Below are positions 12,226 through 54,600 of a stretch of DNA of 64,000 nucleotides, in pieces. Source of the DNA: Anthopleura xanthogrammica (taxonomy: Eukaryota; Cnidaria; Anthozoa; Actiniaria; Actiniidae). The notes below the pieces were generated by a model, which worked only from the letters and a program-made list of their open reading frames with translations, had not been told where the DNA came from and ran no database searches. A program made the translations under genes and the position numbers. Every line of letters begins with the position of its first letter. Within the stretch, counting starts at the first letter, position 1. The DNA lies in assembly GCA_964019055.1 (NCBI GenBank), contig OZ025217.1:9297966-9361965 (forward strand), in the 5' to 3' direction.

Positions 12226-18428
<6,203 letters not shown>

Positions 18429-19427: not shown

Positions 19428-22184
19428 GAAAGAAAAAATTTACAGTTTATGTAAATGAGTGGGATTATTTTAGGTGGAGGTTAGCTCGTTGAGAATATTT
19501 TTCTCTTTATTTTAGCAGTTTTTGTGAGCAGTTGGACCCGGAAATACGTCAACACTTGACAGCTTTATTGTCTTTCCCTTGATGAATATCAATACCATGT
19601 TATAGGAAATTCACGCTTCATGAAATTAACGCGAATTTCAAAAAATCGCGTAAATTTAAGTCGTGTTAATTTCTTTTAATGTTATTTTCCATATCATTAA
19701 TAAAGTGGAACTCTAATTTTCACAATATGAATTTCTAGCAATCTTATTTGTAATCTGCTTTTGAAAAATTATATACTTAAAACTGAACATTACAGCTAGT
19801 CACTTAATAACAACAACAATTTAGTATTTGTCGGAAATTATCTTTTCGTTTTTCATTATACAAGCTCTTCATTCTGTTTCACTTTCAGATGAGTTATCTT
19901 TGTGTCCATCGCGTTAATTTCATTTCAATGGAAATTTTGGGTTGTCTTTCGCGTTAATTTCTTCATTTGGAAGTATTTTTGCCCTCAATTCGCTTTAATT
20001 TAAGTCGCGCTAATTTCCAATATTTTAAGTTTGACGTCAATCGAATATACTCGCTAGTTTTCTATTGGTTCTGGAATGACCTCATTGGTTGAACTTCGTT
20101 TTCTTATCAAGGTCAACATTTATCGATCTTCCAAATTTTGTCTTATCATGAACAAGCGTAGGATAGTCATGTTGTGTCCTAGTGCAGTAAGTTACTTTGA
20201 CTATGACAAATAGAGTTCACAGTTGAATTTATAAGCTTAAGTATTAAGTAAAAGTAAAAAAAAAAGGCACTAAAAAAATATATAAATAAATAAGAAGGGG
20301 TTTCAACGATAAAATCAAATAATGGATGGACGGATGGATGGATCCAGGTGTCCGGAGCACGCACGAACCGTCCAATCACAGCGCGCTTCGATGCTTAGCC
20401 AAGCGGCCCTTGCTCCAAGTCTCTTCCCAATACAAAAACACGCGTTTCAAAGAATTTAGAGAAAAAAAGTTGAAGTATACGTGTTGTTTAAAAAGTTAAA
20501 GTAAATCTTTGCGATCCATCTCCTCAAATTCTGTGAGATATATGACTTTTAAGACTCGGGCGAGGGCCGCTTGAATTACAACAACAATCCTTTTCGCGCT
20601 TAGTTCAGTTTCGTACAGCTGGATGGATGGGTGAATGAATGATCACTGGATAAATGAATAAGTAAACGAATAACGAATGAACGAACAAAAGAAATATTAA
20701 GTGAATGAACAAAAGAATCAATGAACGGGTTAATGATAAATGAACAAACGAACATACAAATAAAGAAAGAAAGAAAAAGAAAGGAAGGAAGGAAGAACGA
20801 ACTCAAAGAAATCGAATTTTTATGAATGGCCATATCTAGCCACTTTGTGTACAACTTCAAAACAGCCGGCTAGTAATGATTAAAAACCCGCTTATTTTGA
20901 AGTTCCCAGCTTGACACCAGAACCGCCGAGTAGATATGCCATCATATCCGGACGAAATATAAAGATTAATCACTTCTACAAGTTATTAAAAGTGTTCCTA
21001 AACAAAAGGAAGTCTCACGAATATTACTTCATCACGGACCCCTGCGATGACAACAGACATATGCAAACTATAAGCTAAGATTTCTCTCTGCATTCTACAT
21101 TACCGAAGCTACTAGCCCTGAAACACTTCCGAAAAATAATTGTTTTTTTGTCAAAAAGAAACTTGTTGCAAAGTTGGTGAAAATTTTATCGGGTAAGTAT
21201 TTTGTTATTAATTTTTTTCTTTAGTAACCTTAAACGACCTATTTTTTCTGTGATTTAAAGCCGTTTTTAGGCCATTTTTACCCTAAGTAATTAAGAATCG
21301 AAAACTTCTGTGACAGTCTTACCCAAGTCGAACATAATAGATGTTACAAAGGATCACATTTATTAGAGGAACGAACAAAAAAAAAAGATGTTTAAACTTT
21401 CTCTTTTCAAATTATAGGCCAGTCTTAGTCTAAATATTTCAAACGTTATGATAACGAGTTTGATTGCTTTTGCTTCTCGTAAAGACCGGAAACTTTTTAC
21501 AATAATTAAAGTACTGTCCTCATCTAGTATTGAATTGCCACAATTTTATAGTTTTATGAATTATAGCATTTTTCCGTTTATTTGGAGAAAAAAAAGGATA
21601 TGTATAAGTTCGCTGAGAAATCATTCGTTTTTTTCTGAGTTTCATGAGTACTCTCGAAGACTTATTTATTTTTAATTTCTTTGTTGAAATATTATAATTT
21701 TTCACTCACTGATGACTATACGCCTGGGCCAATGTGGTTGTATTATGCAACGTTAGTAGCCAATCAATACTCGTTTGACTTCACTTTATGAATTACAATA
21801 ATGAGTAGTCTAGCACCATGGGGTTCGTAAGTAGTGGCGCCTTGGAAAGTTTTGAGTTCTGATTAAAAGTTAATTACAACTTAGTCTGTTTTGAGTTGAA
21901 TGAAGAGTGATAAGGAGAAATACTGACAGAAGTACTTGGAATTAAGGATTAGTTTCTATTAGTTTAGTGCAAGAGAGCATTAATATTTATGCTCTCTTGT
22001 TGAAGTGGCAACGCTTTTTTCTTTCTTTTCTTTCTATAAAATAATTAAAGCAAAATTAAGGAAATTTCATTTAAGCTAGGACTTTTTTTGTGGTTTTATT
22101 CTCGAGAATTAAAAATTCATTGATAATCTTCCTCTACTAGCTTCCTCTTCTTCCTTTTCTTTGTCTTCTTCGTCTTCTCAGTTT
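19428..22184. other. Region without a supported gene
   Basis: 19473-19565 repeats a block also present at 8867-8965 (GGTGGAGGTTA, then GAGCAGTTGGACCCG). 19607-20020 has several CGCGTTAATTTC-like motifs with inverted ends near GGAAATT. 20620-20800 is degenerate GAAT/GAAC/GAAA repeat. 21960-21998 holds a short hairpin (CAAGAGAGCAT / ATGCTCTCTTG). No exon was recognised. Confidence 0.5.
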
Positions 22185-22545
22185 TTTTTTCTTCTTCTTC
22201 TCCTTCTTCTTCTTCTTCTTCTTCTTCTTCTTCTTCTTCTTCTTCTTCTTCTTCTTCTTCTTCTTCTTCTTCTTCTTCTTCTTCTTCTTCTTCTTCTTCT
22301 TCTTCTTCTTCTTCTTCTTCTTCTTCTTCTTCTTCTTCTTCTTCTTCTTCTTCTTCTTCTTCTTCTTCTTCTTCTTCTTCTTCTTCTTCTTCTTCTTCTT
22401 CTTCTTCTTCTTCTTCTTCTTCTTCTTCTTCTTCTTCTTCTTCTTCTTCTTCTTCTTCTTCTTCTTCTTCTTCTTGTTAGTGTTCTTCTTCTTCTTGTTA
22501 GTGTTCTTCTTCTTCTTTTACTTCTTCCTCTTCTTCTTCCATATT
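22185..22545. repeat. (CTT)n microsatellite, about 350 bp
   Basis: Near-perfect TTC repeat from about 22190 to 22475, then interrupted by two TTGTTAGTG variants. The poly-leucine open frame is an artefact. Confidence 0.98.
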
Positions 22546-24600
22546 TGCAGTTAGTAATTCATAATTAAAATGGAAAGTACAGTAAACATAACTTTGAGGA
22601 AACTTCGTTTGTTCTCCTACAATTATAATCCATGTACTCACGTGCTATATCTCGCCTTTGATTGGCTGTTGATTTAGCCCCCGTCATTCATAGCGTGTGA
22701 ACTTCACATGATGGTATTATTTATTCGCAGCAGAGATTGAAACGTTGTCAGTTTCAGTAGCAGAATTAAATGGTTTTTTTTCACAGTTTCTGACGAAAGG
22801 AATAATGAAATAGTCGTTGAATTCGGTTTTCTCGTGTGGCACCGATGACCTTAAACTCGGCAATAATACACGTACGTAAAAGACCATTTTCGAATTCGTA
22901 CAATACCACTGTGTTCGTTGATTACAGACTCATTTACTATACGTGTTAGCCTCAGCTCAGTGTCAAAATATTCACAAATACCAACGGTAAAGTAAAGAAT
23001 GCACAACTTCAACAATACAAACACTTTGAAATTCCACGGGCCTTAACTTGAACACGTGAATATTCTACACGAAATCGAACCTATATTCTTTGTTTTCCAT
23101 TTTAACAGTAAGCTTTGGACAAAGAATCTTATTCCCAAGGGAGAAATGGCACCTGGTCTATGAAAATATACTGTTTATTTGCATAATATTTGATTATATA
23201 TTGCCTTCGCGTGAAATTTGAAAATGCAAATGAATCAGAAAAGAGCGGGAAAATGTTGACTTCTGGTAAAATAGCACGCGCGCTCTGAAATCAGAAAAAA
23301 AGTGGGAAAATAAGTCATCATTGTTTTGCAAGGTTAATTTTGCAAAACATAATTCACAGGTCGTGTAGTTTCTGGTAAAAGAAGAAAAACGACCCTGCAC
23401 ACATCTGTTTTGGATAATCCGATCGAGCTGATTCAGCCCCAAATCTGGGGCCGAAAAGGTGAGTAAAATATGGCACATATTTTGGGGCTGATTTGGCTTT
23501 TTTCTACAGGGCTGAATTACACCCAGTCTTAAGAGCTGAATTGACCCTCAGAGGAGGTGCTAAAACGAACCGATGCAAATCTGTTTTGGATAATGGAGGT
23601 GCTGATTTGGAATTTGTAGGAGCTGAATTAAATTTTCGTAGAGCTGAAACGTTACGAAAAGTAGTGTTGTTTTGGCTATGACAGGTTCATAAGAGTCTTT
23701 TAAAAGCTGCTTCAGTCCAAATGGAACCAATTTGCAACACAAGGTCTGGTTTTGCCATTCTGTGTAAAAATAAACTGTTTTGGTTAGATGTTGACAACAT
23801 GATGCAACAATATCGTAACCCATCTATTGTAGATTATATAGTATGTAATTAAGAATGATGACACCATTCATTATAATTTTTTTAAATTTAATCTCATAAA
23901 ATCACAATATCAAACATTAGTGTATAAGAGGTAACACATACAATTTATGGAAAAAATACAATATACAAGTGTACAACTAACTGTAGAAAGATTTTCACGA
24001 AGCTCTCAAATAATTTCTGCATTCAAAATTGCATTAAATAATGAAAGAGTTTAAAGATACTAAAGCCTACCCTCTTACTTATCAATCAAGGTCTACCCTC
24101 TTATCAATCATGTTTAGCTATAGTGTACATACAATGCAAAGGGCATTCAAATCATGCATTCTACAGCCTGTGGCTTAACAAACTTTTTTACTTCACCAAA
24201 GTTGGTGTCCCTCTGGGAAAAAAATAGACATTTGCAGTCAATATTATTCCTTAAATAATGATGAATTACAATTGACTTATAAAATGATGGCCTCTTGGCT
24301 TTCCACATACAGGTAATAGATAATCCTTCTTCAATCAAATCACATCATACAAACTCTATATATTTATATATAGCTGGCCATGTAACTGAAACTATATTTT
24401 AGATTCTGTACAAGGTGCACAAATTCCATCATAAATAGCTGGATCAGTGTGTTAATATAATGCTTTGTACCTATATTGGCTAGTTGTAGGAAAATTTAAA
24501 TTTGATACTATGATGCAGCTTTAGAAAAAAAATATTGTAACAAGTTCAAAGCAAAAAAAAACTAAATATTTAGCACTGCTGCCTAAAATGTAAATGTATA

Positions 24601-28552: not shown

Positions 28553-31500
28553 GTAAGACAATTCCTATGACAATGTTGATAAGAAATTAATTTCACTGCA
28601 ATATATTTAAACGACTGAATCCCAGAATTTCTGGTTTTCTCGTGATGTAACAGTAGGAGTACTAGATTTAAAAAAAAGCTCAGCTTCATCTGTAAAATCC
28701 TCAATGATAAATAGAGCATTTTTATTTAGTTTTATATATTCATTCAGTATTGATTCAGACGGAGTTTTAATTTGATAGAAGATCAGGAACTTAAACTCCG
28801 TTCAGTTAATAGTTATTTGAATTAAAGATTTTCATTGAAGACCTCATCGGAAAGGTGTTTGCTCTACGACAATATTAGTCAAGAATTTTCTCATATTTGC
28901 CACTGGTCGTAACTTGTACTTTCGAATTCGCGGATTTTCTTCTAAAAATTATTTCTGAAAATGAGTTACATTAGAGGAAAAATGAATGCAAACAAAAAGG
29001 ACTTAAAGGGATAGAGGACCACCATAACTATCTTTGTAAAACGTTTTTTACATCAATTGAGAACAATGAAAGTCACAAACTTAATAATCTCTTGCCAGCA
29101 AGGCATGTAAGCAAATACAATTTAAGAAACAACCGTAAATATAAAGTTCCGCCTGTACACACCAATCGAGCAAAGAATTCGTTCATCCTGTCCATGTGTG
29201 GCTGAATTAATCAGTCGGTTATCACACCATGGCCAGCGATGACGTTTCCTTGGTCGGTTGGTGTTTGCAACTATTTTTTACTTATATTTATGTTTTATAT
29301 TTTATTTATAGAGATATTTATTATATATACTATTGTATTGTAAATTTATTCTTAATTATTCTTAAAATTTATTGTATATAATTATGTAATTCAGCTTTCG
29401 GGCTGCGAATAATTTTAATAAACTAGTTATCTATCTATCTATCTAAGCGGAAAAAAAAGAAAAGAAAATATTTCCCGTATTAAATCGCCTTTGTTGTTAT
29501 GTTGCTGTACGAATAACTTAGACATCTTTATTTGATCATTCCCGACCTTCACTAGAGTATTAGTTTTTGTTTTAAAAATAAACATAAAACAGCATTTTTA
29601 ATCGCATAATTTTTATTTCGTTTGGAAAGTGTTTGTGCATGCACTGTTTCATCGAGTTCGTGCGTATTTTTGTCTGTCTGCTGTATAAGCCAATCAGAAC
29701 GCGTGCTTGCGTCGTGTCCATATTTTCACGCGTGTGAAAATCATTCGTCCAATGAGAAGCGAGTAGTAATAGACCTTTCGTGAGTTCGAAATAGATTCAA
29801 GGCAAGGCTGGAGTAGACAAATCAGCTGTAAATGTATAGATTAGAAAACTCCAGCCTGGACTTGAATGTTTTGTTCTGTGGTCAGTCAGGCGAATTCGGG
29901 AAAGGGTTTTTTTTTTAAATAGATTTTTGAGTAAAAAAGAAGATAATTTCAATTGATAATATGAATAAAACTGTCCACACGTCATGGAGAAAAATTGGTC
30001 AAATATGCATGAAAAATAAAAAGCTAATACAGCTATGTGAAAATGTTTTAAACAATCTTTAGGGTTCGAAAAAAAATAGCAGTAACACACCGACAACAAC
30101 AATATAATCGCAAATATCGTTCAAATAAAGGCGACTTATTTCGCAATTTTTTCAATATGACATATCAAAGTTTTTTAGCATTCGTAGATAATTTTAAGTT
30201 TTTGTTTTCTTGGTCTATGACGTAACATTAAATTGTTGGGAAAACTACCCTTTGTTTGGTGATCACTCCTGCTAAGCCGTGATCGGTGTAAGGATAATTG
30301 TTATTTAAATAAATCAGTACTGGCTATACAATTATAATTACATGTCAAACTCTCATTAAATACTTGGAAGGACTCAAGGGATTCCTACTTGTAGTTCAGC
30401 TCAATATATTATTTTGGTACCGCAAGGACAGAGTGAAAAGCAATATATAATAGTTTAGGGAAGTAGATGACAATTCAGCATCGCGCTATGAAAGAGAAGC
30501 TTCAAGAAAAGATCCTGATCTATCTGGTTTCTTTACTTTTAAATTTGAATCAAGTTTGCCAAGGTATGTTACGATAGATATTTATCAACAATTCTTAAGT
30601 TAACTATAAATGCTTTTGAAAAACTTTTCCCTAAATAACTGACAAATTGAGATTTTTTTCAGGCTGGCCTTAAACGGTACCGGGTGAATTTTTAACCGCT
30701 TAAAAATCTGACCTGTTTATACCATTTACACGGATAGGAACTTTGTCTTTAATTTGCACGGCTAGGCGTTCGCCCCGGGGCGTTCGCATTTTTGTCCAGA
30801 TTCTGTGTAAACAGAACGCTTAAACGTATAACTTTTCAAACGTTTAAAAATTCGTCCAGTACCTTGTAAGGACAGCCTCATGATCAGTTTAAAATAGTTG
30901 ACACTAAATATATATCTAAAACTACACTTTGGTATTATAACAAAAAGTTTGGCCTCAGCTGTCTGTGTGTCTTGTACGTATTCTACTATACTATCTTATT
31001 ATAGCAGCTGATTAAAAATTCGTTACTGAGTTAAATTTCTTTTTCTATGAACTAATTATAAGATGCTATTATTCGAAAATACTATTTGTCAGTCATTTCA
31101 CCGTCGGTCTTGACTGAATAATATTTGATGAGAGTTTTTTTAGATTTTTTTTTTGTGGCGGAACTTGAATCGGTTCAAAGCAATTACAACCGTTGTGAAT
31201 CCACCGACCAACCTACCAGCCAGCCAGCCAGCCAGCGCTAGCCAGCCAACAAACAAACCAGCTTTAGTGGCAAAATAAAGATGACACCTCAGTTTGGCAA
31301 ATTTTCTCAGCTCTGATTGTAAATAAAAAAAAATTCTCAGATCAACTGAATTGATTTATATTTTTTTTACGATTTTGGTTGTTTCCAGTACGTATATCAA
31401 AATGGACTGAATTCAGGTTTTAAGGTTTTTATTTTTTATTTTTTAAACATCCATCCAGCTGGACTAGTTTTGTCTGGCTTAATTTGGTTCAAGGCTGAAT

Positions 31501-31887
31501 ACGTTTATTGCATAATAGCGATTAATATTTAGTCCGCTTACCTCACTGATGGCCTCCTTGCCGCCAAAAAAGCCTGTTAATGAGTTGTCGCGTTAAAGTT
31601 AAAGTGTTAATGACAGTTTGAAGTGAAAAGCTTTTGAGATCAACATCGACTATTAAATAAACGGGGCAGCTGTATTCCATTTCTTACCAATCACATGAGT
31701 GAAATCGTATAATTTTCTGTCGCTACAAAATAAGGTTTTGGTGAACGTCAATAAAGGTTTTTCAATTATAACATATATCGTCGGGAAACCCAAAGGGCAC
31801 GCGTCTATAAAATCTAATGAAAAGGTCTTGATGGACGCCCACTTAAACCTACTTAATCGAGACGGAAAATTGCAGTTGAGTGCCACA

Positions 31888-31919
<32 letters not shown>

Positions 31920-34900
31920 GGTGCTGCTTTTTTTAATTACATCTACAAATGGTTAGACCTTTTGAATGACCAAGTAAAATGGCGGTCCCGTCTCTCATTA
32001 TTACAAATGTCTTAATTTTTTTTACTCAGGAATAAACAGAACCAGCGGTTTGGTACGATACGAAAAAATTTTGTACGAAGACTTATTTCGCGACTACAAC
32101 AAGGAAATACTTCCTGTGCTGAACCAATCAGAGGCTGTTCACGTGACCTTTGGATTCGCTCTTTCTGAGATACTTGATGTGGTAAGTTTCCTTCCTCATT
32201 AACAGCTAGTTCTCACAACACAGTTTTCTTGTCTTCCTGTGTTTCAAATTGCACCTAAAGCCTGAAACAAAACTTTCAGTATTGATTCTACATGAAGTAG
32301 ATAGTTGAATGATGAAGTATTTTTGCGTTTGTGTGTTGTTTACGTTTTTGACTGTGACGTCATACCGGACTTCATTGAAAATACAAATATATACGTGAAC
32401 GCAAATCGCGCGCGCATATAGTCTTTGAATCATTTAAATCATTGTAATACCTACTTTTCGCCCTGAAGATACACTAGAAGTTCGAAAGCTCGGTAACTGA
32501 ATAAATATTCGCGGAAGAAACAATCGTATACATCATGGTTATCCCCACGTACAATAACATTTTAGACATCGGAATATTGTTGTGGAGAGGGGATTAAGGC
32601 CCATGCACTTCAAACATCGATCTTCCAATGACCCTAACGTATTGAAAACAATGAATAATAAGGCGGTCTTCTTTGATGTTATTAGGTTCGGCTCATGAGA
32701 AGATCAACGTTTGAACTTGGCCTAAGAAAAGACATTCCAATGTTTTTCTTTGTTTAAACACTGACTCAGTTTTCTCAAATGACTTCTGTTTCAGGACGAG
32801 AAAAACCAAGTGCTTTCAACGAACGTCTGGGTACGACAGGTAAGATACAAAGATACTGGAACACAATGAATTTTCTACATAAAATTGAGGCCGTAAATTT
32901 CACCAGTACCCTTTTTTAATTTCGTCACGCAACGTTCGAGGGAGCGTTGCGTGACGACACTAAGAAACAGCTGCGGGGACTAAGGCTAACCCTGAGCTGA
33001 ACAGAGAACACAAACATGGGAGTGTTTCAGTAGCACTCACGAAGATTGTTGAATGAAGTTTTACAAAATATCACCGCTATGTCAGTGATTCAGTTATCAG
33101 TGGTCATTGAAGACCACTGGAAAAATTCCAATACTTGCATTTGCTCCTTGCACAGTTTAAGCCGCCATTTTTTTACCCATAATTGGAGCATGCGCATTAA
33201 AAACACTGACTCCTGCTCAAGTCGTGTCTAGTGAATTTACAAGTACTCTGTTTTAATTGAACGTAAAGCAAAAATCAATGAGCCTTATTCTTGGTTTGCA
33301 ATCATCCCCAAGGGAGTAAAATTACAAAAGCAGTGGCCGCCATGTTGGAAGATATAACAAAATAATTCATTGAAAAATCTTTTGTCAAATTCTTCCAACA
33401 TGGCAGCCATGTGCAAACGAAGAATGATATTAGCGATGAGTAAACATTTGTGTGTAATGTGTTCTGTGTATATGCATAAATAACAGACGTGGAAGGACAA
33501 GCTGCTGAGGTGGAATGCTTCCCTTTATGGTGGTATTAAAGCCATTAATATTGACCCTATTCATATCTGGAAGCCAGACATTCTCTTATATAACAAGTAA
33601 GTTGGCCACATTTGACAAATGTGCATTCTAATGAGATAGGCGGATGACTGATCTCTTTGACTGTTCTCCAAAATTCTTTACGACACTTAGTTTCAACGGC
33701 ATTTAATCTTGACGACCATCGACATCATTTCTAACGTTAATTTCCCTCATAATCATCAGCACCATCATCATTTATTCCATAACTACAGAAGTATCGCCAT
33801 CATCATTACTGCACTGTTTTATCATTATCGTTCTTATCGCCTTAGTTTAGCTCAGTTGAATGAATTCGCCACTATTTGCCCAGAAGATATTACATAAATA
33901 TACAAACTTTGAATAAAAAAAAGGGAAAAATAAGGATTTGGCAGGGAAAAGGAACATTAAACTTACGTGCTAATTGCGACCTCACTCCTATTGATGGTTT
34001 GTAATCATTCCCATGGCCAATAAAATTGAATTGCAAAGACATGGCGGCCATTTTAGTGGTATTAACAGAGGAAGCTGATGAGAAATCCTTCATTATATAT
34101 CACCAATATGGTGGCGAGGACGTAATGTCCAAAAGGCCCATACCATAAAACTATAAAAAATAAAACAATGAAATGAAATTCAATACACAATAGATCATTA
34201 ATTAAACAAGGTATACAAGTATACGGTGGAATCCGTCAACACAAAAACCGTGCAGGACAACAACACTAACTCACCAGTTCAAATTCATCACCAATTGAAG
34301 ACTGACACTCGATAATCTTTGGAGCTAACAATGAAAATAAATAAATATATGATATATAAATATATAAATTTTATATGTTTAAAAATGGTAAAAGATATAC
34401 AACTACTTGGCTTGGCAGTTTTTAATACACTTTGTGCATTCGTAATTAATGATAACAAGACTTTCAGAAGCTAGAAGTTATGCAACTCTTGCAAACTCGA
34501 ACCGACACTTTTGCAAAGGAAATCATTTTTTAGGAGTAACTTAAGTTAGAAGTTTTTAAAGGCGTTTCTTAAACCCATAGTTATAGGGTCCACTAAGCAT
34601 TTGTGTAAATAACTTTTTGTTTGTTTGTTTGTTTGCTTCTTTTACTTGTTTATTTTCATCGTTCTTTTTATTGGTGTTTGCACCGGATGTTAGTTGCATG
34701 TTTTTCAGCCACATCACATTCCAGTCGATGTTTTAGAACTGCACTCGACTGATATACCCATTCCACCTCAAGCTTGTCATTCCACGGACTCAATTCAAGG
34801 CGATGTTTAATTTCCCCGGAGCCTTGCCTTGATTATTGCTTTGTGCGTGATCACTCAACCAGAATATCGAAAGTGAGCTACTAGTGGTATAGACCCCTTG

Positions 34901-37900
34901 CAGCACGCCGGAATGCAGCTCAATTTGGAGTTCAAAACAATAGGTTCCAATTCTCAGGAGATTGAAATTCTTTTGTTTTATCCTCCAAATTGAGCTGCTT
35001 TGACGTCACATGCAAGGGGTCTATTAAACAAACTAGTCAGCGCTTAAAGTATTATCTTTTCATGGTGTAGACGTGGAAAGATATATCCTTGACCTGGAAT
35101 TCGTCTCTTTATGGCAACATTAAGACTATTAACGTAGCAGCAAAGAAAGTCTGGGTACCTGACATTGTTCTTTATAACAAGTAAGTTGGACATGGGTATA
35201 TCTGTTAATGGCATCTTAAAAAGGAATGATTTACTTGCATTTCTTCCTGAGTCATCAGCGTTTTCATTTATTACTACGACTTTAAAAGCTCATGAATAAT
35301 TCATAAGCCTTTGGTCCAATTGTAGCTCCCATACACGTCACGTGCAAGGACCTTTATACCCGATAAAGTCCTCTCCATTAGTATCCAAGTGATACGTGTG
35401 TTTATATAAAGAATACTAATAAGGATGACTCTATCAAAAACAAAGGTACATGAGCCTCATCAAGGTCAGTCTCACATACGATCACCGATGACCCACAAAA
35501 TCCCGGTTGTGGATACCAGTAAAGTAGAAAGAGGGATTGTTTGAATAAGAGAAAACGTCTGTTTCTGGCTATTGTTATCTGGCTATTGTTTGTTATCACT
35601 AACAGTGTGCGCAAGCTGTACGTACCATTTTGAATGCAGTTTTAAGCACGATAATCTCTCAAATTTAGGCATGATTAGTTCTCGTCATGTAACTTCATTG
35701 TCAAATTCAATATCAGAAATTTCGAGAAATATATGTATATGATCGTACTATACTGAAATGGACTCAGAAAAAATTCTGAGCCCCAAGATGCTCTGCTGAG
35801 CTACAGCAGTATCTAATGGCGAGCAAGGTCGTTAGTGTGGGTATGTTGTGACAAACGTACTCTAAATGCTACAGTTATAGAAATGTCAAAGGAAATATAA
35901 ATGATAAACATGATATGCCTATGATGATAACGAGCTCGTTTCAGTATGGTACTATCATAATATACATATTCATCATTTCATCATCATACGCATATCATGT
36001 TTATAAAAAATTTATTTCTAAATTCTTTCACGACAGACATCGGACTTTTTATGCGAGAGGTGATAACAAACACAACCCTCAATCATTATTTCATATCGGG
36101 TGAAGAAACGAATGGTAATAATGGCACAGTTGACGCAACATTCTAATTTACTAAGACCACACTAATTTTCTTATCTACTTATTATACGTTTCCTCCTACC
36201 CAAAAATAAAACGCCCCAACACCCAACACCCCAAACACCCCAAACACCCCAATCACCCAACACCAACACCCACTTGTTAAAGACATCGCTTACAGTGAGA
36301 TTACTATAACCAGGGCCACCGAGACACCGAGAATCTGTCAACCAATCAAAATGTAGAACGATAACAATACATTCCAACTTTGGGTATTAGAGCAAATCAG
36401 AGACCTGGACAGCACGAGTTGTTTACACGATCGTCTTTTTCTCATTGCAATCGCAATAATTTTGTTGCATTGGATGGACTCAATGTTGTAATGCCATTGC
36501 TTATTATCAATAGACGTCACTTCCGGTAGTATCTCCGTTTTTACTGGCTTGGAGAATGTTGAAAGTTGTCTGTGTATCTTGTTTTCTGGTTTCATGTTGT
36601 AGAAATACTTTGAGGAGTTATTTTGACATGATTTTTTTTAAGAATCACTAGTTGCCCCCAGTCAAATTCAGAAAAGTCACGTGATTGATAGTAAGCAATT
36701 GCTTTTTTATGGTCTCTGATTGGCTCCACTAGCCAAAGTTGGAATGCATTGTTTCCATTCTACATTTTGATTGGTTCTAGCTATCTAAGTGGCCCCGGTA
36801 TTGTTTTCTTGACCTTTGTTTAATGTCACCTGTGGATAATTATCCTCAAACCAAGATTTCCATGATAGAATTTCCATCGACACGCGTGAAAAACGTCTGC
36901 GCATGCTCTAATTATTTCGTATGCAAATTAGTCAAAAGCGTCTTCGTGCTATTGCAAAAATATTTGCAAATTTGACTTTCGCACATGCCCGAAAAATAGT
37001 CTTTACAAAATGCCAAAGCTTAAGGTGAGATACTCGAAGAAAACAAAAATTTCTTTTCTCACTAAAACTCTTGTAATTTCTTGGACAGCGTACTGAAAGG
37101 TTTTCCTCTATTGTCGTAGCCCTCTAAGGAAGAGTGGGTGGGGACAAAAGTTCGTGCGGATCATAATAATGTAACAGAAAGTATCCTCGGTTGTCTTCAC
37201 AGTGTCAACAACAATGACCACGGCGAACAATATCTCTTCAACACCAAAGTGATGATCAGTCATGATGGGACCGTTGAATGGTACTCCCCCAACAAGTTAA
37301 AAACATTTTGTAAGATTGACGTCCAACTTTTCCCCTTTGACACTCAAGAATGTAAGGCAACGTTCGGATCCTGGACTTTTGCTGGGGATAAACTCGATCT
37401 TCATTTTTACAAGAATACTTCAAGGGCCGATTTAAGCATATTCTCAAAGAACGGAGAATGGGACCTAACGTCTGCTGAAGGAGTTCGAAACGTCATTTTC
37501 TACGAGTGCTGTGCAGCACCGTATATTGACTTGACGTACAGCATCATTATCAGGAGAAGACCCCTCTTTTACTTGAATAACCTCATTCTTCCTTGCATAG
37601 TACTGGCACTACTCACGTCCGTCTCTTTCCTATTCCCTCCAGAGACTGGGGAGAGAATCTCATTGGTCATAACAGTGTTGTTGGGAATGACAGTATTTAT
37701 GATTATCTTCACTGAAGCGATTCCCGCCACTTCAGAAGTGACTCCCTTGATTGGTAGATATTTTGCAGCGGTGCTCTTTGAAGTGGCGCTCTGTCTCCTA
37801 GCAACGTGTGTTCCTTTACGGCTTCAACATTTGCATCCAGGCACAGAAATGCCTCGTTGGGCCAAAGTATTGATCTTCGATTATATTGGGTATATTATGT

Positions 37901-38280
37901 GCTCCGAAATGTCTGGGTTCCGAAAGGGTAGGACCAAAGGTAGTCAGTCAGGGAAAGTTGCCAAGATTCATAGCTACTCTAACGATGAAATTAAGCTCAG
38001 CGACACTGAAATTATAGAAAACGGTTATGTAAAGGATCACGAGAAAACGAATCAACGCTCGGTGTCTACAAAGGCAAATGGCTTTGAAAATAACCGACAA
38101 GAAAAAGGAAAGGATCATTCTGTTGTTAATGAGTATATTAAAAAAAGAGAAAGAGAAGACGAGCTGTACGCTGAGTGGAAAAACGCCATTAGTGTCTTAG
38201 ATCGACTTTTCTTTTGGCTTTTTATCTTAACGTTTGTCGTGTCCAGTGTTGTTATTCTGTATGGATATTCCAGACCTTGA
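28471..38280 (+). CDS. Nicotinic-acetylcholine-receptor-like alpha-type subunit (receptor B), with alternative exons
   Basis: Predicted cation-selective Cys-loop channel subunit. Exons: first exon 28471-28552 or 30488-30563; 32030-32181; 32795-32839; exon 4 either 33487-33596 or 35071-35180; last exon 37203-38280 (TGA). The product is about 488 or 486 residues. Seen: VLSTNVWVRQ (loop D), WKPDILLYN or WVPDIVLYN (loop A), GSW (loop B), C166 and C180 13 residues apart, and a YECCAAPYIDLTY loop C with the vicinal cysteines and aromatic residues of true alpha subunits. M1-M3 contain GERISLVITVLLGMTVFM, and M4 lies near the C-terminus. The GE motif before M2 fits a cation channel. Intron positions and the 110-nt size of exon 4 equal those of receptor A. 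All alternatives keep reading phase; that they are alternatively spliced is inferred. Confidence 0.88.
29280..29447 (+). mobile_element. 3' tail of a non-LTR retrotransposon-like insertion
   Basis: The AT-rich end has TTCGGGCTGCGAATAATTTT and AATAAACTAG followed by a short (ATCT)n tail at 29429-29445, the usual look of a 5'-truncated LINE or SINE end. No coding part is present. Confidence 0.4.
30488..30563 (+). CDS. Receptor B first exon, version 2 (signal peptide)
   Basis: ATG at 30488 begins MKEKLQEKILIYLVSLLLNL and ends in phase 1 at donor GTATGT, compatible with the same downstream exon at 32030. Splicing version 1 onto this exon would need an acceptor that is not evident. Alternative promoters with alternative signal peptides are the simplest reading; a leftover from a partial tandem duplication is possible. 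Confidence 0.65.
30661..30878. mobile_element. MITE-like element with inverted ends (AGGCTG... / ...CAGCCT)
   Basis: AGGCTGGCCTTAAACGGTAC, then GTGAATTTTTAA, is mirrored at 30845-30878 by TTAAAAATTCG and GTACCTTGTAAGGACAGCCT. The 218-bp element is non-coding and starts 98 bp after first exon version 2. Confidence 0.6.
33335..33418. repeat. Hairpin with GGCCGCCATGTTGGAAGA arms
   Basis: GTGGCCGCCATGTTGGAAGA at 33335 is mirrored by TCTTCCAACATGGCAGCCA near 33400. The ATGGCGGCCAT-type core resembles a YY1 site. It ends about 70 bp before exon 4a of receptor B. Confidence 0.5.
33487..33596 (+). CDS. Receptor B exon 4a (loop A region)
   Basis: 110 nt between TAACAG and GTAAGT, encoding TWKDKLLRWNASLYGG, then IKAINIDPIHIWKPDILLYN and a split codon. 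It enters in phase 0 and leaves in phase 2, as exon 4b does. It carries the loop A aromatic residues and the WxPD signature. Confidence 0.85.
34889..35024. mobile_element. Fold-back MITE family 3, best copy
   Basis: ATAGACCCCTTGCAGCACG at the left is mirrored by CACATGCAAGGGGTCTAT at the right, with further inverted blocks (CAGCTCAATTTGGAG / CTCCAAATTGAGCTG). It ends 46 bp before exon 4b. Confidence 0.8.
35071..35180 (+). CDS. Receptor B exon 4b (loop A region)
   Basis: 110 nt between GTGTAG and GTAAGT, encoding TWKDISLTWNSSLYGN, then IKTINVAAKKVWVPDIVLYN and a split codon. Same length and phase as exon 4a, with divergence concentrated in the middle. Including both would add 220 nt and shift the frame, which supports mutually exclusive use. 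Confidence 0.85.
36879..37115. mobile_element. MITE family 2, degraded copy
   Basis: It begins ACACGCGTGAAAAACGTCTG and follows the 3049-3355 copy through TTTACAAAATGCCAAAGCTT. The right end has decayed. It ends about 90 bp before the last exon of receptor B. Confidence 0.65.
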
Positions 38281-39691: not shown

Positions 39692-42600
39692 TCATGAAAT
39701 GCATACTTGTCCGTTTCCTTTTTCGGGAAAGCGTGAGCAGTTGAACTGTGCAGGCCAATGAAAGCCAAATCTCTCTAAAACTGGCTGACAGCCGCGAAAT
39801 GATCGAAGACATAACGAACGACAAGGTGGTATCACACCCAGCTCGGTGCATATCGGAGCATACATTGAACATAGAAACACTTCTAAAGAACTGGAACACT
39901 GGATCTTGACAAGAGGGATGAACTGATTCAGCTCTATCATGGCTTCGTCTTGAGTACGGTGTTCTAAGATATTTGGAAATAATGTGGATTTGTGGCCTAA
40001 TGCAGAACACATCGGTATTGTAAGGTTTTGACAGCGTTTTCCTGGAGGTGGGTCTGTGAAGAAATTGAAGAATCATTCTGTCAGTAAATATAATTTGGAC
40101 CACAATTTTTTTCTCCTGTCACGAATCACTGAGCATTATGCATTGAACCCACTATACGTGACAAGTGAAGCATATCTCCGAAGTATAGTATAGAGGTTTT
40201 GCACCATCACGTACCAGCGCCCATGATATAGCTTGGGCTGCCTGTGGTTAGATGGCAGAACAATAAAATCCCTTTCCTCTCGGGAATTGAATTCTTTCTC
40301 ATGTAAAACGATTGTATTATTTCTGCCATGCAATATGGCTGCAGTCACGTGATGAAGCAAAACCTCTATAGAGGCTTTGCACCATCACGTGATAGCAGCC
40401 ATGACAGGAGGCAAGAACAATTGAATCTGGTCTAATATGGTTTACATGAGAAAGAATTCAGTTTCTCAGAGGAAAAACTCTATTGTTCCGGCCTCTTGTC
40501 ATGGCTGCCATCACGTGATGGTGCAAAGCCTCTATTGGCCGGTTAGTATGCCTCTTTACCTTGGCCGTAATATTTTCCCATTTCAGACCATGTGTCATTC
40601 CCTTGAGTATCATTTCTTTGTTTAGAGGTTGCACTTGAGAAGGCACATAAATATGGATACAACTCAAACAAAGAATCGTATTCTCAAGAGAATGACACGT
40701 GATCTGAAATAAGAAAATGTTACGCTCAGGCTAAAGTCTGTTAAGAAGCCATACAAAATCTAAAATCTTATCAGTGGAGTATTGCTGTGACACAAAGAAC
40801 TAAGTGCCAAACACTTACCCGCGTGAGGAAAAGTACTAGTCTTGGTGATCAGCGGTTTTTGTTTTGTTGGTGGTTCAGAGGTTATTGCATTCGTAAGTTC
40901 TGAAAGACGTATGCATGCATTAGTGGTCTCTATTAATTATTAAAGATCATGATATACCATTGCCGCAAGCTAGATTACTCAAAGTTCAACAAAAACAAAA
41001 ACATTAACCAACAAGATAAATCAACCATGTCCTTTGCTATTCCGAACCATCTATACCAAAGAAAATCCTTCTCAATGTCGTGCTATTTCGTGCGTTTTCG
41101 GTGGGAGAAAAACCGCAGAACTCAAATAAAAACTTTCGAAGCACAGGAGAGACTCATCAAGCGATTCTACTCACCTACAGTACGTACCGAACCTGGCGGG
41201 AATCGAAAACATGTTGCATTGGTCATAGGCGAGCACAACTCACCGCGACGCCAGCTGTGCTTCGGTGTATTTTTAAAATATTGCGCGGCTTAAAATTTCA
41301 AAGTTCAAACAACCGTACCTGTCTGGTTATCAGGGGGCTTTGGTATGCACGTCTCACCACTGCCTTCTTCTGGAAATCTCGAACAGTTGAATTTCGCAGG
41401 CCAGACAAAACCAAATTTATTCAACAAGGGTTCACAGCCCTGCTTTGATTTTTCACAAAGCGAACGACAAGGCGGTAGAGTGCCAATATCCGTGCACACG
41501 GGCGTGTAGATGGAACAAAGAAACAGGTTTAAGTAACTTGAACAACCGATTTTCACTGCGGGAGAAAGTTCCTGGATTTCTGAGGCAGCTTCTTGTTGAT
41601 TGCGGTGACCAAACATGTTGGGGAATTTGGTAAAGTTGTACCCGATACCCTGGCACATTGGTATGGTTATTTCCTGGCAAACGCTGTCATTAAGTATTCC
41701 TGGAAATACAAGGTACAACGTGAAGTAGAACTGATTTTGCTTTAGAGGAGTTATGCCTTTGGTAAATACCTCCCTTTTTTATTTTCAACATGAATTTGGA
41801 AATTAGTAAGAGGGGTTTGATGACGGTCATGCTGTAGGGCATAGCATGAAAATGTAGGATATCCGGCGGGATCCCTATTCCGTCAAATAGACCGAATCGG
41901 CTAAGGTGGTGTTTTTTTTTTTCGTTTCCACTCAATTCAAATCTTGCCAGAAAAAGATTATTTGTCTTTTGTATTTGGATATCACATGTAAATTAAATGG
42001 ATTTTTTTGAAAAAAAAGATATTATTCCCAGAGGTTTTGAAATGGGAGGAAACGTACATAGCAACGCGTTAGCCGATTTGGATTATTGTTTCTACAACAT
42101 GGCTGCCAAGAAACATTTATTCACGACTTTGAGAGGTACATAAATACGTACAATATGTACAATGTTATTCTTCACTGCACATGAAAACTTTTGTGTTTAT
42201 GCAAATGAGCCAAATCGAAATGCTTTATGGGTCGTAAGAAAGCAGCGTATTCTTGGGGTGCAACCACGTGACTGAAAATCCCTTGAGATATAAATAACAA
42301 TGAAACAGTAGCCATATTGATGTAACATGTACCCCCAACTAACCTTGAATTCGTTTTCGCTTGACGTTTCGATTTTCTGGAAATCGTTGAGCTAGATGTG
42401 CTGGTTGGGGAGGACCGGTAGACCTAAATCCTTGGAAACATCCTTTCTTTGGTAGTTTATTGCAACGAAGTGAGAAAGGCCATTTCATTTTTAATTTCTT
42501 CATAACGCGTTTGCAACCTTTTCTTATTTTGTTACACAATGACCTGAAAAAGAGAAAAAAATGTGAAAACATCATTCGTCGTGACACAATGGGTTTTGTA

Positions 42601-45600
42601 GAATTTATAATGGTAATAAAACTAAGTTGAGTGCAATTTGGGCTGAAATCACAAGAGTGATTACAAAATTGCACGACCGCGTAGTGGGAGCGCAATTTGT
42701 TAATCACGAGTGTGATTTCAGCCCAAAATTGCAAGACACAAAGTTCTATTACCTATTAATCATATCCATTTTGAAATCTCAATATATTCAAATACTCAAC
42801 AGTTATATGTAGCTTCAAAAGTGATTGATTGACAAAATGATGCTATTAATGATTCAAAATAGTGCGATTATGGCTTAAATCGCACACTTTTTAGCCAATC
42901 AGATTGCAGGATTTGCTAATGATTTCAAAATGGATATGATTAAGAATATTATTGACGCAAAAGCCCTCCCCCTTGTCCCGGACCTCACATCTACATCGGT
43001 AAAATTTCCCTTATAAGTTTTCCCTAATAATTGTACAAAAAATAATATTGAAGACTGTATTGGGGGGGGGTTAAATGTTGAAACCACTTGTGTATTTTGT
43101 TGTTGTTGTTGTTTTTTGCACTTGAGCATTAATATTTTTGTGCGTGTACCTATAACGGTTGTGATGATATACAGTTGAAGCTCTCCTTGCAACCACTCTC
43201 GTAAGCGACCAGCCCGAGTTACGACCACGATTTTGAAGCCCCGTTTGCATTGCCGCTTATGAGAGCCCATTCTCGTTAACGACCACCTCTAGTTACGACC
43301 ACTTTTTCGATTTCCCGAGGTGTTTGCTTACGAGGGCTTCGACTGTAGTTAGAATATGCATTGAACGCGAACAATGAAAATGTTTGGAATAGAAAAGAGC
43401 AACGCTCAAACGATTGAAACGAAAGATGACTGTGTGACATTTGACCCGGTTTTTAAATTTTAAATTTCATTCCAAGCTTCGTTCTTACCTGCAAGGGATC
43501 TGTGAATGATTATAGATACAAGGGGGCGTGTAGACTCTACAGAGAAACGCCTCAAGCAGTGGTGAGCATTGTTTCCGAAGTACTTTGCCCCAGCGCTTAA
43601 TGACATTTCTTATCTGGTTCTGATCTGTGTGGCCAAAGCTGTTGGGTAACATTGTGTACGTATAGCCTACTCGACGGCAGGTCTTGATGTCGATCCGTTC
43701 ACATAAAGGTTTTACTTTGCGGGCTAAAATTGAACGAGCAAAAATAGGTATAACAACAACGATCGTAGATCGTAAGTAATTTCGGAGGGACGGGGATTCA
43801 TGCAGTTTGGCATTTTCTCTCTACTGATTCGTATACCTTTTTTTTTTTAATAATTTTTTTTATTTACACTTAAGGAGGATCACACTAGGTGTGTTTCTCT
43901 AGATGTTCAATTATTCGTGTACCTGCCAACCTATTGGAAGAATACTCAACCCCAAAGTAAAGTGGCTCAAGATTAATACTAGACATATATACACTGTCAC
44001 ATGTACTGCCTCTCTGCCTCTGTCCGTCTGGGAGACATAGCAGCCACATAAGTTAGGGAACATATAGTCCCCCTACGTATGGAACAGATTTTTCATACTT
44101 CTTTTGGATTTATCAAAATCTACTGTCTCTCTGCCTCTCTCCGTCTGGGAGACATAGCAGCCACATAAGTTAGGAAACATATAGTCCCCCTACGTATTGA
44201 ACAGATTTTTCATACTTCTTTTGCATTTGTCAAATTGCTGAATCACGAAGCTTGGCATAGGCTTGTATATAACGACCATGATCAGAAAGAAAATTTTTTT
44301 GCATATACCCTTACAGATGATAACACCATTTTCTATATACAACTAACGTATTTTCCATTGTACACCTCCTCCTCCTCACACACACACACAAATATAACTC
44401 TAAAAGTCTAAAAATTAAAGTCTAAAAATTAAAATGTAGTCAAAGAAAATAGTTCTGGTGTACAACTATGAACTTGTACATATATACAATATTTTGGGGA
44501 AATACTAAAAAAACTAATTTATAAAGTATGTTTTTTATTTTTAACATTTAATGAAAGCATGCTAAATACAGAATAGTTATTCAATGGGATCATAGTTAAT
44601 ATTTAGCAGTTATTCGCCGAAGGCGAAGTGATTATCGATGAATATTTACCGAGCGGCGAGTCTTCGAGCTGCGAGGAAAATATTCATCGATAATCACTGA
44701 GCCTGAGGTGAATAATTGTTTTAGTATAAATAAAAAGGTGATTATTTCAAAAAAGAAAGAAGGAAACAACATTGAAAGTGAAAATATTTTATTTTTTAAA
44801 AGCGCGACGGTCACGCTGACAGCCATTTTGTCCGAAAAGGTGATTATCGGCTGATAATCCGAGATAGAAAACCAATCAGAGCGCGCGATTTTGTATAATC
44901 ACCTTTGTATTTATACTAATAACTATGATGGGATTCAGCAAAATATCATAATAAGTATCTCAAAGGCGAGTTCAATATTTGTTCTCATCTGACTATTTTC
45001 CTTAATAGTATATGTCCTTCGAGAGAAGATTCCAGCTGCCATGTTTACATAAATAATGCAAATGTCTCTATTATATCCTGATGAATTATTCTGATACAAA
45101 CTTACTGACAATTAGCACGTGGATAGATATTCTCAACTATCATTCCCAACAGAGCGAAATAATACAAAAATGGCGGCCATATTGGTTAGTGTAAAAAAAA
45201 GCGAGACTAATGACGAAGCTTTTGTTTGACTCAACCAAGATGGTGAATACGAAAACCAGCTATATTAAGAAAAGCAATTTATATTCAATTTATGATATTA
45301 CAGATCAGTACAGATATAATTAACTTGAGACTTACCATTAGATAGCAAATTTGATGTAATAATTCGATCGTGATAAAACGCAAAAAATTGTTTTAATTTG
45401 TCTAGGAAGCTATTTATTACACTAAATGCGTATTTTGTGGTATTATTAAAAGACTAATACCATTATAGTACTATTGGTCATTAAGATCATCAGGTGTGCA
45501 AGAGCAGCAAATTATTACTTCATCAAACCTTAACCTTGATCAAACATTGTCCCAGTTATGTGCGAGCAGAAAATTACTGCACTAATAATATTGTAGTATT

Positions 45601-48600
45601 ATGGGTCATTAAGATCATCAGGTGTGCGAGAGCAACAAAATATTACTTTCTGGAACCTTAACCTTCAGTTGATCATTGTTCAAGTTATGTACGAACAGAA
45701 AATTACTGCACTAACAATATTTTAGTTCTATTGGTCAGTGTAATTCAGGATATTCACTCTTGTTTCATCCTCTGACTTCTTCCACTTAGTACTCATAGCA
45801 AAATAAGTAAATTGTTTTAGAATTGGTACAGTTTAATTTAGGGGTAAATAGACAGTACATTTTAGGGATCATTTTCAAAATTTCCGACGAGCATCCCCGG
45901 CCTGTTTTATATATAGTTAGTGTGGAAGTTGTGTCGGACAGAAAACTTTAGTACTGCACTAATGATATTAGTGGGAGAGCAATAATGTACAATTATGTAG
46001 AAATTATGAATCATTTTTACTGAATTGGTCCGGCATTAAATAAGATCATTAGATGTTGGTGAGCAGCTAGCTATAAAATACCTTCTGAAACCTCAAACTT
46101 GTTCATTGTGGAAGACGAGCAGAAAATTATTGCAGTAATAATATCTTAGTACTATTGGTCACAAAGAGCATCAGGTGTGGTAGAGCGGCTATAACTTAAC
46201 TTTCTAGTGATTCGGTTTAACTGACCTGATACTTTATATTCATTTTACAGTGAAGCTGATAAGTGTTTACAATGGACCTGAACAATTCAACACAAGCTGA
46301 TGAAACATTTACGCCACCAATTCCAATTCATACTAAAATAATTCTGTTGTCTATTCTATTTGTCTGGTCTCTGTTCGGTAACATATTCGTCATCGCTGTC
46401 GTGTTTTGCAATGAAAGCTTGAGGACAAATATGAACTACTTGATTGTCAATATGGCAGTATCAGACTTGCTCGTCCCCTTGGTAGGACTCCCATATTGGT
46501 ACAGTTGGTCCGAAGTTGTTTGGCTAGTGGACGGTCCTCTTGGTAATGCTCTCTGTAAACTGGTTCCCTTCCTCGCTAAGATACCACCATTTGTATCATC
46601 TATCAGCCTGGTCATCATAGCTTACCAAAGATTTACAGCTGTTGTTTACCCAACTCGAAGACAAATTCTAACTCGTAAGACATTATGGATTTCGATCTCT
46701 TTACCTTGGATCGTAGCCATGGCTCTCTTCTCTCCAGACATTTACACCTATCGTCTGCTAATAAATGAATGGGACTACATAATGTGCGTCGAATATTGGT
46801 TTCCGGAATCTGAATATTGGACAGCTAGTTTGATAATCCTTTCTATACAACTAACCGTTGGCTTTGTTATTCCTTTGATCACAATCATCATTTTCTATGG
46901 CATCATAATATATAAACTACGCAAAACCTTGAAGAATGTTATGGAGTTAATTGAAAGAGAAACGATACGTTCACGACAGCGGACAAACAGACGAATATTT
47001 AGGATGTCAATAACTATTATTGTAATGTTTACCATATGTTGGTGCCCAAATACTGTGTTAAATTTGTTGATATTTTCCCAACATCCTGCAATATGGTCAA
47101 TGGACTTTCCTCTGACTGAAATGAGCTTTGCGTTTTTGTATATGTGGTACATTCTAGCGGCAATCAACCCTTGCATCTATTTTGTGTTCCTGAAAAACTT
47201 TAGACAAGGACTGAAAAGTCTTTGCTGCAGGAAACCTGTATCAGCAAATGAACGGATAACAAGAAGCACCAGAACACCAGGTGGAGATGTTAACCAGCAC
47301 CCAACATGTACACCACCTCACATCAATACCACTTCAGTATAGGATGAACATCAACACTAGACGACCCTGAACACCTGGTGGAGATGATAGCCAGGACCCA
47401 ACATGTACATCACCTCACATCAATACCACTCCAGTCTAGAATGAACATCAACACTAGCCGCACCAGAACACCAGGTGGAGATAGTACCCAGAACCCAACA
47501 TGTGTATATTCTTACTCACTTCTTATTGCACTTTTTATTTTTATCTTAAATGAAGACCTTTTCGCAGTTTCCCAAGAGTATTTGAAGCAAACTCATCTAA
47601 CTTATCTGACTTTGAAATGCGGGGAAAATTGAACTTTAAGACTATAACTTAACGAGCTTATGACACGTTAATCACAGGCCTTATCAGTGTATGTTGATTG
47701 ATGTTAGTGTTCTCATTGCCACTGGCATACAGACAGAGAAGTGAATTTTCGATTGAATGCAAAAAGAAGTTGGGTTAGTTTCAATTTAATAGAAAGATTC
47801 TGGCGCTGTTTGTAGACATGCTTTACATATTAGACACAATGCAACGAGTAACCTGTTATCTAAAGTTCTGGAGTAGATAGATAGATATATACACTTTATT
47901 TACAGAGGAAAACCGTAATTACAGTAAACCTGTACTCTCCCTTACGGCCCTAACAAAATTATAAAATCGAACTATAACTATAAAAATATATACATATAAA
48001 CTACATTTGTATTTGTACTTGTAAACATATGAAATATAGATTTATTAATCTAAACAGCCATTTGATAAGCCAAGCCTTAAAACTAGCCACAATTAGCGAT
48101 AAATAAAATTACACCTTTTAAGTTTTTCTTTTTTCTGATTCCTTGGCAACGAAGTTGCGCAATAGCACCCAAGGGTCTTCACGACCTTACCCAACAGGCC
48201 TTTGCGAGCATATGCTATGGGGTTCCTGCCTATAGTCCCATCCATTGGTTTTATTGTCACCTATCAATTAATGCCAAACTGGTAAGGCGGTGCACAATAA
48301 AGTACGTTTTCTATATGTGTAAATTATCATTTGATGAAAGAATGCCATATAATACAGAACAGTTATTCAAGGGGCTTCAGCAAAATATCATTCGAGTTTA
48401 ATATTTTTTATCATCTGACTGTTTTTTTAAGGTGTATTTTTTGCTACTTTTCGCTTTCAGAAATTCTCTCGGTTCTATTTAGCCTTCGAGAGAAGATTCA
48501 AGCTGCCTTGTTTACATGAATAATGTAAATGAATACGTATTTTAACTACCATGCCCAACAGAGCGAAATAACAAAAACATGGCGGCCATATTGGTTAGTT

Positions 48601-51600: not shown

Positions 51601-54600
51601 CTAGTTGACGGTCCCCTTGGTAATGCTCTCTGTAAACTGGTCTATTTCTTCTCTCGAATACCACCATTTGTATCATCCATTAGTCTGGTCTTCATCGCTT
51701 GCCAAAGATTTATTGCTATTGTTTGTCCAGGTCGAAGACAAATTTTAGCTCGTAAAACAAGATGGATTGTGATCTCTTTCCCTTGGATCGTATCCATGGC
51801 TCTCCTCTCTCCAAACTTTTACATCTATCGTCTGACAAATGACCGGGGCTACACAGCATGCGTCAGTTCTTGGCTTCCAGCATTTGAATATTGGACAGCT
51901 AGTTTGATATTCACTTCTATATCTGTAACGGTTGGCTTAGGTATTCCTTTGATCGCAACGGTAATCTTCTATACCATCATACTATACAAACTACGTAAAA
52001 TCTTGAACAATGTCATTGGATTGATTGAACGAGAAACGATACGTTCACGACAGCGGAGAAACAGACGAATATTCATGATGTCAGTGACTATAATTGTAAT
52101 GTTTAACATATGTTGGTGTCCTATTTCTATATTTAGCTTGTTGAGGTCCACCAAACATCCTTTATTTTATCCAATGGACTTTGACACTTTATATCAAATG
52201 CACTTTGCGTTTTTGTATCTGTGGTACATTCTAGCGGCAATCAACCCTTGCATCTATTTTGTGTTCCTGAAAAACTTTAGACAAGGACTGAAAAGTCTTT
52301 CCTGCAGGAAACCTGTATCAGCAAATGAAAGGATAACAAGAAGCACCAGAACACAAGGTGGAGGAAGTAACCAGGACCCAACATGTACACCACCTCACAT
52401 CAATACCATTTCAGCCTAGGATAAACATCCACACAAGATGCACCAGAACACCAGGTGGAGAGAGTAACCAGCACCCAACATGTACACCATCTCAAATCAA
52501 TACCATTTCAGCCTAGGATAAACATTCACACTAGATGCACCAGAACACTAGGTGGAGATAGTAACCAGCACCCAACATGTACACCACCTCAAATCAATAC
52601 CATTTCAGCCTAGGATAAACATCCACACAAGATGCACCAGAACACTAGGTGGAGATAGTAACCAGCACCCAACATGTACACCACCTCAAATCAATACCAT
52701 TTCAGCCTAGGATAAACATCCACACAAGATGCACCAGAACACTAGGTGGAGATAGTAACCAGCACCCAACATGTACACCACCTCAAATCAATACCATTTC
52801 AGCCTAGGATAAACATCCACACTAGATGCAACGGAACACCAGGTGGAGATAGTAACCAGCACCCAACATGTACACCACCTCAAATCAATACCATTTCAGC
52901 CTAGGATAAACATTCACACTAGATGCACCAGAACACAAGGTGGAGATAGTAACCAGCACCCAACATGTACACCACCTCAAATCAATACCATTTCAGCCTA
53001 GGATAAACATCCACACAAGATGCACCAGAACACTAGGTGGAGATAGTAACCAGCACCCAACATGTACACCACCTCAAATCAATACCATTTCAGCCTAGGA
53101 TAAACATCCACACTAGATGCACCAGAACACCAGGTGGAGATAGTAACCAGCACCCAACATGTACACCACCTCAAATCAATACCATTTCAGCCTAGGATAA
53201 ACATTCACACTAGATGCACCAGAACACCAGGTGGAGATAGTAACCAGCACCCAACATGTACACCACCTCAAATCAATACCATTTCAGCCTAGGATAAACA
53301 TCCACACAAGATGCACCAGAACACTAGGTGGAGATAGTAACCAGCACCCAACATGTACACCACCTCAAATCAATACCATTTCAGCCTAGGATAAACATCC
53401 ACACAAGATGCACCAGAACACTAGGTGGAGATAGTAACCAGCACCCAACATGTACACCACCTCAAATCAATACCATTTCAGCCTAGGATAAACATCCACA
53501 CTAGATGCAACGGAACACCAGGTGGAGATAGTAACCAGCACCCAACATGTACACCACCTCAAATCAATACCATTTCAGCCTAGGATAAACATTCACACTA
53601 GATGCACCAGAACACAAGGTGGAGATAGTAACCAGCACCCAACATGTACACCACCTCAAATCAATACCATTTCAGCCTAGGATAAACATTCACACTAGAT
53701 GCACCAGAACACAAGGTGGAGATAGTAACCAGCACCCAACATGTACACCACCTCAAATCAATACCATTTCAGCCTAGGATAAACATCCACACAAGATGCA
53801 CCAGAACACTAGGTGGAGATAGTAACCAGCACCCAACATGTACACCACCTCAAATCAATACCATTTCAGCCTAGGATAAACATCCACACTAGATGCACCA
53901 GAACACCAGGTGGAGATAGTAACCAGCACCCAACATGTACACCACCTCAAATCAATACCATTTCAGCCTAGGATAAACATTCACACTAGATGCACCAGAA
54001 CACCAGGTGGAGATAGTAACCAGCACCCAACATGTACACCACCTCACATCAACACCATTTCAGCCTAGGATAAACATCCACACTAGATGCACCAGAACAC
54101 CAGGTGGAGAGAGTAACCAGGACCCAACATGTATACCACCTCAAATCAATACCATTTCAGTCTAGGATAAACATCCACACTAGATGCACCAGAACACCAG
54201 GTGGAGATAGTAACCAGGACCCAACATGTATACCACTTCAAATCAATACCACTTCAGCCTAGGATAAACATCCACACTAGATGCACCAGAACACCAGGTG
54301 GAGAGAGTAACCAGGACCCAACATGTACACCACCTCACATCAATACCACTTCAGTCTAGGATAAACATCCACACTAGATGTACCAGAACACCAGGTGGAG
54401 AGAGTAACCAGGACCCAACATGTACACCACCTCACATCAATACCTCTTCAGTCTAGGATGAACATCAACACTAGACGTACTTGAACACTAGGTGGAGATA
54501 GTAACCAGAACCCAACATGTACACCACCTCACATCAATACCTCTTCAGTCTAGGATGAACATCCACACTAGACGACCCCGAACACCAGGTGGAGATAGTA

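Follow-up and report, generated by a model that had tools for sequence, protein, structure and literature searches.

In the cnidarian Anthopleura xanthogrammica, we found that a gene for a nicotinic-type receptor subunit (gene B) carries two versions of its fourth exon, 4A and 4B, which are probably mutually exclusive, with one of them in each mRNA, and which appear to be an old tandem duplicate of exon 4 in an alpha-type subunit gene. Reading the genome sequence in this way, we put the probability of this explanation at roughly 0.8. Since a whole protein results when either version is used alone, two receptor forms are probably produced in this animal. In the mechanism that we propose, the fourth exon would have been duplicated in tandem long ago, the mature mRNA would take 4A or 4B, spliced in each other's place, and any mRNA including both, being out of frame, would be lost; the changed stretch that precedes loop A would give the two resulting subunits unequal assembly, gating or agonist sensitivity, with the contact residue the same in both.

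Gene B lies on the plus strand, at ~30488-38280 of the window, by which we mean the whole stretch of 64,000 nucleotides analysed here (C12:9297966-9361965 in a 290 Mb assembly). Its exons are as follows.

30488..30563, plus strand: tentative exon 1, signal peptide; phase-1 donor GTATGT, in-frame join to exon 2, hydrophobic leader (an alternative Met lies at 30467)
32030..32181, plus strand: exon 2, start of the ligand-binding domain; tblastn against Nematostella P0003, splice sites
32795..32839, plus strand: exon 3, 45 nt, loop D (NVWVRQ); splice sites and frame
33487..33596, plus strand: exon 4A, 110 nt, TWKDKLLRWNASLYGGIKAINIDPIHIWKPDILLYN; frame, profile score of 67.9 bits, tree grouping with the sister gene at 97/84
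35071..35180, plus strand: exon 4B, 110 nt, TWKDISLTWNSSLYGNIKTINVAAKKVWVPDIVLYN; frame, profile score of 66.4 bits
37203..38280, plus strand: last exon, with loop E, Cys-loop, loop C (YECC), TM1-TM4 and stop; ORF and Pfam

The last exon matches PF02931 (Neur_chan_LBD, 109.4 bits) and PF02932 (Neur_chan_memb, 128 bits) and contains the vicinal cysteines of loop C in its YECC motif, and the predicted product of gene B is an alpha-type nicotinic-type Cys-loop receptor subunit. Among the best 120 of 1569 database matches listed, the closest named protein is Nematostella vectensis 'alpha-10 isoform X2' (P0003, 59% identity), and unnamed sequences are up to 96% identical to gene B across the last exon. 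The window holds a second nicotinic-type receptor gene, receptor A (15933-18428, plus strand), with a single 110-nt fourth exon at ~16610-16719 and a long last exon that is 52% identical to that of gene B over the matched part.

Further features of the window are two Frizzled cysteine-rich pieces (Fz, PF01392) on the minus strand at 41305-41718 and 42339-42734, the second scoring 29.2 bits, below the curated cut-off of 32.1; Rhodopsin-family GPCR genes on the plus strand at 46263-47342 and 51340-52419, each a single uninterrupted ORF of 359 aa; and long simple-repeat ORFs (TNER/SFVR-type, poly-Leu tracts) at 9820-10158, 12942-13412 and 22161-22568. Two ORF pieces at 54911-55880 on the minus strand have no Pfam match and presumably resemble a disrupted retroelement reverse transcriptase.

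Exons 4A and 4B have the same length of 110 nt. Both are preceded by AG and followed by GTAAGT, are entered in phase 0 and left in phase 2, and end in LYN and the AA of a split Asn codon, which the T at 37203 completes; their donors are alike over GTAAGTTGG. The original prediction had described two such exons at these positions, with these phases and endings, and that description is confirmed, as are the junction coordinates that it gave (32839, 33487, 33596, 35071, 35180 and 37203), all of which fit. The two exons are identical at 70/110 nucleotides (24/36, 29/36 and 15/36 at the three codon positions) and at 22/36 residues. Joining exons 1 (tentative), 2, 3 and the last exon to either 4A or 4B produces an ORF of 486 residues; using both shifts the frame, as had been predicted, and yields a truncated product of 134 residues, and skipping both leads to an early stop, such that the frame is intact only with exactly one of the two. 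By published criteria (PMC3228551), exons are predicted to be mutually exclusive when they are alike in length, agree in splice sites and frame, and are homologous, and the 4A/4B pair displays all three features.

The truncation that follows from joining 4A and 4B is also what would be expected if 4B were a poison exon, whose addition to 4A gives an out-of-frame mRNA that is degraded. Yet 4B has kept a receptor-like protein sequence, for which a poison exon has no need, and we regard this explanation as highly improbable; such a role could, moreover, coexist with exclusive use of 4B.

We found that 35 of 38 other fourth-exon stretches in the genome contain a 110-nt exon of the same phase, which indicates that what has been duplicated in 4A and 4B is the standard fourth exon of this family. 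They form the only tandem pair among the 50 fourth-exon places found in the genome, as judged by ordering these places and 87 downstream matches along the contigs and taking neighbours with no downstream match between them; both counts are lower bounds, and more distant receptor genes may therefore be missing. As controls, 40 of the 48 other fourth-exon places were taken with 5 kb each, and 37/40 were resolved as 110-nt exons (the exceptions being L076, L087 and L095). Against these 37 exons, the earlier description of the splice sites as good holds for the donors, both of which outscore every control, but not for the acceptors, where only 4/37 score lower than 4A and 14/37 lower than 4B. As far as sequence can speak to it, mutual exclusion itself is favoured by the frame logic, the equal length and phase, the homology of the exons and the resemblance of 4B to a working exon.

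From their sequences, both 4A and 4B look like conserved coding exons. Identity between them is much lower at third codon positions (15/36) than at first and second positions (53/72; Fisher p 0.0016). When a copy of 4A was left to drift neutrally to a matched third-position identity, the simulated exons kept 5.7 identical residues on average and 20 at most, compared with 22 in the real pair, and 0/1856 runs reached 22/36 (215 were stop-free); the model is simple and places all change in one copy, so these figures serve as a guide rather than an exact probability. By the NG86 method, dN between the exons was 0.31, with dS not obtainable. In a profile built from 37 other fourth exons of the genome, from which 4A and 4B were left out, 4A scored 67.9 bits and 4B 66.4 bits, against 60.9-79.2 bits for the members themselves. 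Exon 4B carries the conserved residue in 6/6 columns that are at least 90% conserved among 56 reference exons, and at 12 of the 14 positions where it differs from 4A its residue occurs in other receptors. The profile scores and the simulations rule out a chance resemblance between the two exons, and their identity of 64% is far too low for duplicated haplotypes in the assembly.

These data bear on the alternative that 4B is a dormant or decaying copy which is spliced in rarely or never. Its acceptor scores below the middle of the other fourth exons, a foldback repeat lies ~45 nt upstream of it, the sister gene has no second copy, and its residues I63 and S64 are found in 0/56 reference exons (as is H84 of 4A). 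The third positions, however, have diverged strongly while frame, splice sites and conserved residues stayed intact, and both the neutral runs, none of which retained 22/36, and a profile score like that of other exons argue against decay, leaving this alternative distinctly unlikely in our estimate.

Under the preferred reading, in which 4A and 4B are used in exchange for one another, the duplication appears to be old. The closest paralogue of gene B (the sister gene) lies 0.9 Mb away on the same contig, with last exons 74% identical, and a search of it for a second fourth exon found only one fourth exon. A rebuilt tree of fourth exons, which leaves out P0121, P0087 and P0122 (the last having been cut out of register), joins 4A to the fourth exon of the sister gene at 97/84 and sets 4B beside that pair at 74/84; with 36 columns, this placement of 4B is weak. 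At face value, and weakly, it would mean that the exon duplication predates the split from the sister gene, which would then have lost its second copy. The distance between 4A and 4B (22/36) is about that between 4A and its Nematostella counterpart (20/36).

A different origin for 4B, from another receptor gene through exon transfer or from a lost neighbouring gene rather than from 4A, would be compatible with exclusive use, and we consider it rather unlikely. The protein closest to 4B belongs to a gene on contig C20 (23/36, against 22/36 for 4A), and the closest DNA is that of locus L059 (70/108), followed by the exon of another gene (69/108) and 4A (68/108). Both FastTree (0.605) and our first careful tree, which included P0121, P0122 and P0087 and had one row out of register, placed 4B apart from 4A, and a clade of 4A and 4B was neither supported nor rejected (p-AU 0.197). 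Against such an origin, 4A and 4B begin alike with TWKD, and L71 is present in 4A, in 4B and, among the 56 references, in the sister gene alone; the rebuilt tree, weakly, also keeps 4B beside 4A and the sister gene. Moreover, no other exons of a lost gene were found in the introns around 4A and 4B, where a search for exons 2, 3 and 5 returned no match better than E 0.14, which rules out 4B as an obvious remnant of a second gene.

The intron between 4A and 4B contains three features, the first of which may be a regulator.

34759..34786, plus strand: single-copy element within the intron, antisense to exon 4A nt 2-31; local score 46
34806..34880, no strand: repeat with many genomic copies; at least 74 matches besides itself, all at ~34803-34880, with 40 of 1022 candidates scored
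34888..35027, no strand: foldback MITE-like repeat with inverted arms (pair I2), ending ~45 nt upstream of 4B; at least 81 matches including itself, with 40 of 2004 candidates scored

In the first of these, 27/28 aligned bases match 4A, with one 2-nt gap. The highest antisense score was 39 in 500 dinucleotide shuffles (0/500 reached 46) and 33 for the 37 other fourth exons, each compared with its own 5 kb, and no second copy of the element appeared among the genome matches listed. The predicted energy of the duplex between 4A and the element (-49.3 kcal/mol) ranks second among 38 loci and is no outlier, and the antisense score of 4B in the same intron is 24, which is at chance level (328/500 shuffles were as high). 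In a weaker step of the proposed mechanism, the first 30 nt of 4A, an exon with a poor acceptor, would pair with this antisense element 1.2 kb downstream and so mask the exon, favouring the use of 4B; such masking is reasonable but unproven. Two other candidates in this region were rejected. A whole inverted copy of the exon was suggested by a weak minus-strand protein resemblance (E 5.2), but the exon profile gave no minus-strand row, so that only the 28-nt nucleotide match stands; and an inverted repeat beside the 4B donor (34731-34761 / 35192-35222), considered as a second docking arm, is one of at least 13 inverted pairs, several of them alike in quality.

Exon 4 was placed by alignment to human alpha7, where it covers approximately residues 59-94, with W55 and Y93 of that protein taken by us as the numbering anchors. 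W60, D62, W67, W86, P88, D89, L92, Y93 (the loop-A tyrosine, which we take to be the contact residue) and N94 are the same in 4A and 4B, and an N68-x-S sequon is kept in both. The 14 differences, at positions 63, 64, 66, 69, 74, 77, 80-85, 87 and 91, fall in the beta2-beta3 region, whose residues 66-76 are presumably the main immunogenic region, and in the stretch preceding loop A. Since Y93 is unchanged and the differences lie around residues 66-76 and before loop A, the swap would hold the contact residue and alter the scaffold surrounding it. The suggestion that the animal thereby switches the ligand-binding face of the receptor was overstated, given that the loop-A tyrosine, W86, P88 and D89 are identical in the two exons; the differences may affect assembly, gating or affinity.

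We also searched for 4B-type exons in other sequences. A region search of the protein database with 4B produced one candidate and no match, and a second search produced five matches, led by the 4A-like Nematostella protein, with no counterpart of 4B; since clustering of the database at 90% identity conceals splice forms, this absence is weak evidence. Of the proteins listed, 96 matched exon 4 (123 sequences, from the best 120 of 1569 listed); for 19 of these 4B was a better fit than 4A, and the six largest margins shown among the matches listed belong to distant proteins. The Nematostella protein P0003 is like gene B in its 59% identity and in having a 4A-like fourth exon (20/36 identical to 4A, 17/36 to 4B), and no 4B-type form of it was seen. 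Scans of viral and genome contig collections confirmed no relative.

Tandem-duplicated exons in the nAChR extracellular domain are known from insects, and the original prediction had placed the insect alternative exons in the same region as 4A and 4B, which proved incorrect. In insect alpha4, exon 4/4' alters loop E and positions close to the Cys-loop (PMC2064938 for Tribolium; PMC2045683 for Drosophila and silkworm) and exon 3a/3b of Dalpha6 changes loop D (PMC8505678, Table 1), whereas the exon considered here spans ~59-94. The alpha4 exons of Drosophila, Tribolium and Bombyx resemble 4A/4B in being a tandem duplicate and are alternatively used, with both forms transcribed in Tribolium and the exon 4' form assembling less well in Drosophila (PMC2064938, PMC2045683); they differ in lying near loop E and the Cys-loop rather than in the exon before loop A, and in belonging to another phylum. 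Insect alpha6 3a/3b likewise lies in the ligand-binding domain and is described as mutually exclusive (PMC1919356, PMC8505678), as 4A/4B would be on sequence grounds, but it is the loop D exon, and silkworm 3a and 3b together stay in frame, unlike 4A and 4B. The predicted independence of this arrangement from the insect cases is supported, because a different exon was duplicated.

Exon clusters with docking sites and selector sequences, as presented in PMC6071210, share with 4A/4B the combination of duplicated exons and a complementary intronic element. Here, by contrast, the element matches the body of 4A rather than two selector sequences, and 4B is matched no better than by chance, which sets the locus apart from the textbook docking-site arrangement. 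A Nematostella nAChR paper (PMC6825365) makes no mention of splice, isoform, exon or loop A, and in the literature that we covered, which included few subscription journals, we found no report of switching at this exon or in cnidarian nAChRs. Within that limited coverage, 4A/4B would represent a familiar type of switch at a receptor position for which we found no earlier report of one. The fuller proposal, that a cnidarian has a very old exclusive pair leading into loop A, at a position unreported for switching, and that 4A is silenced by antisense pairing, is as a whole fairly unlikely.

If both exons are expressed, the exon switching in extracellular domains of nAChR-type receptors that is known from insects would extend outside Bilateria, on a different exon. 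The two natural forms of the subunit, 14 residues apart and with the same loop-A contact, would then offer a test of the stretch before loop A. With a single such pair among ~50 fourth exons, this one receptor family presents duplication both of genes and of an exon.
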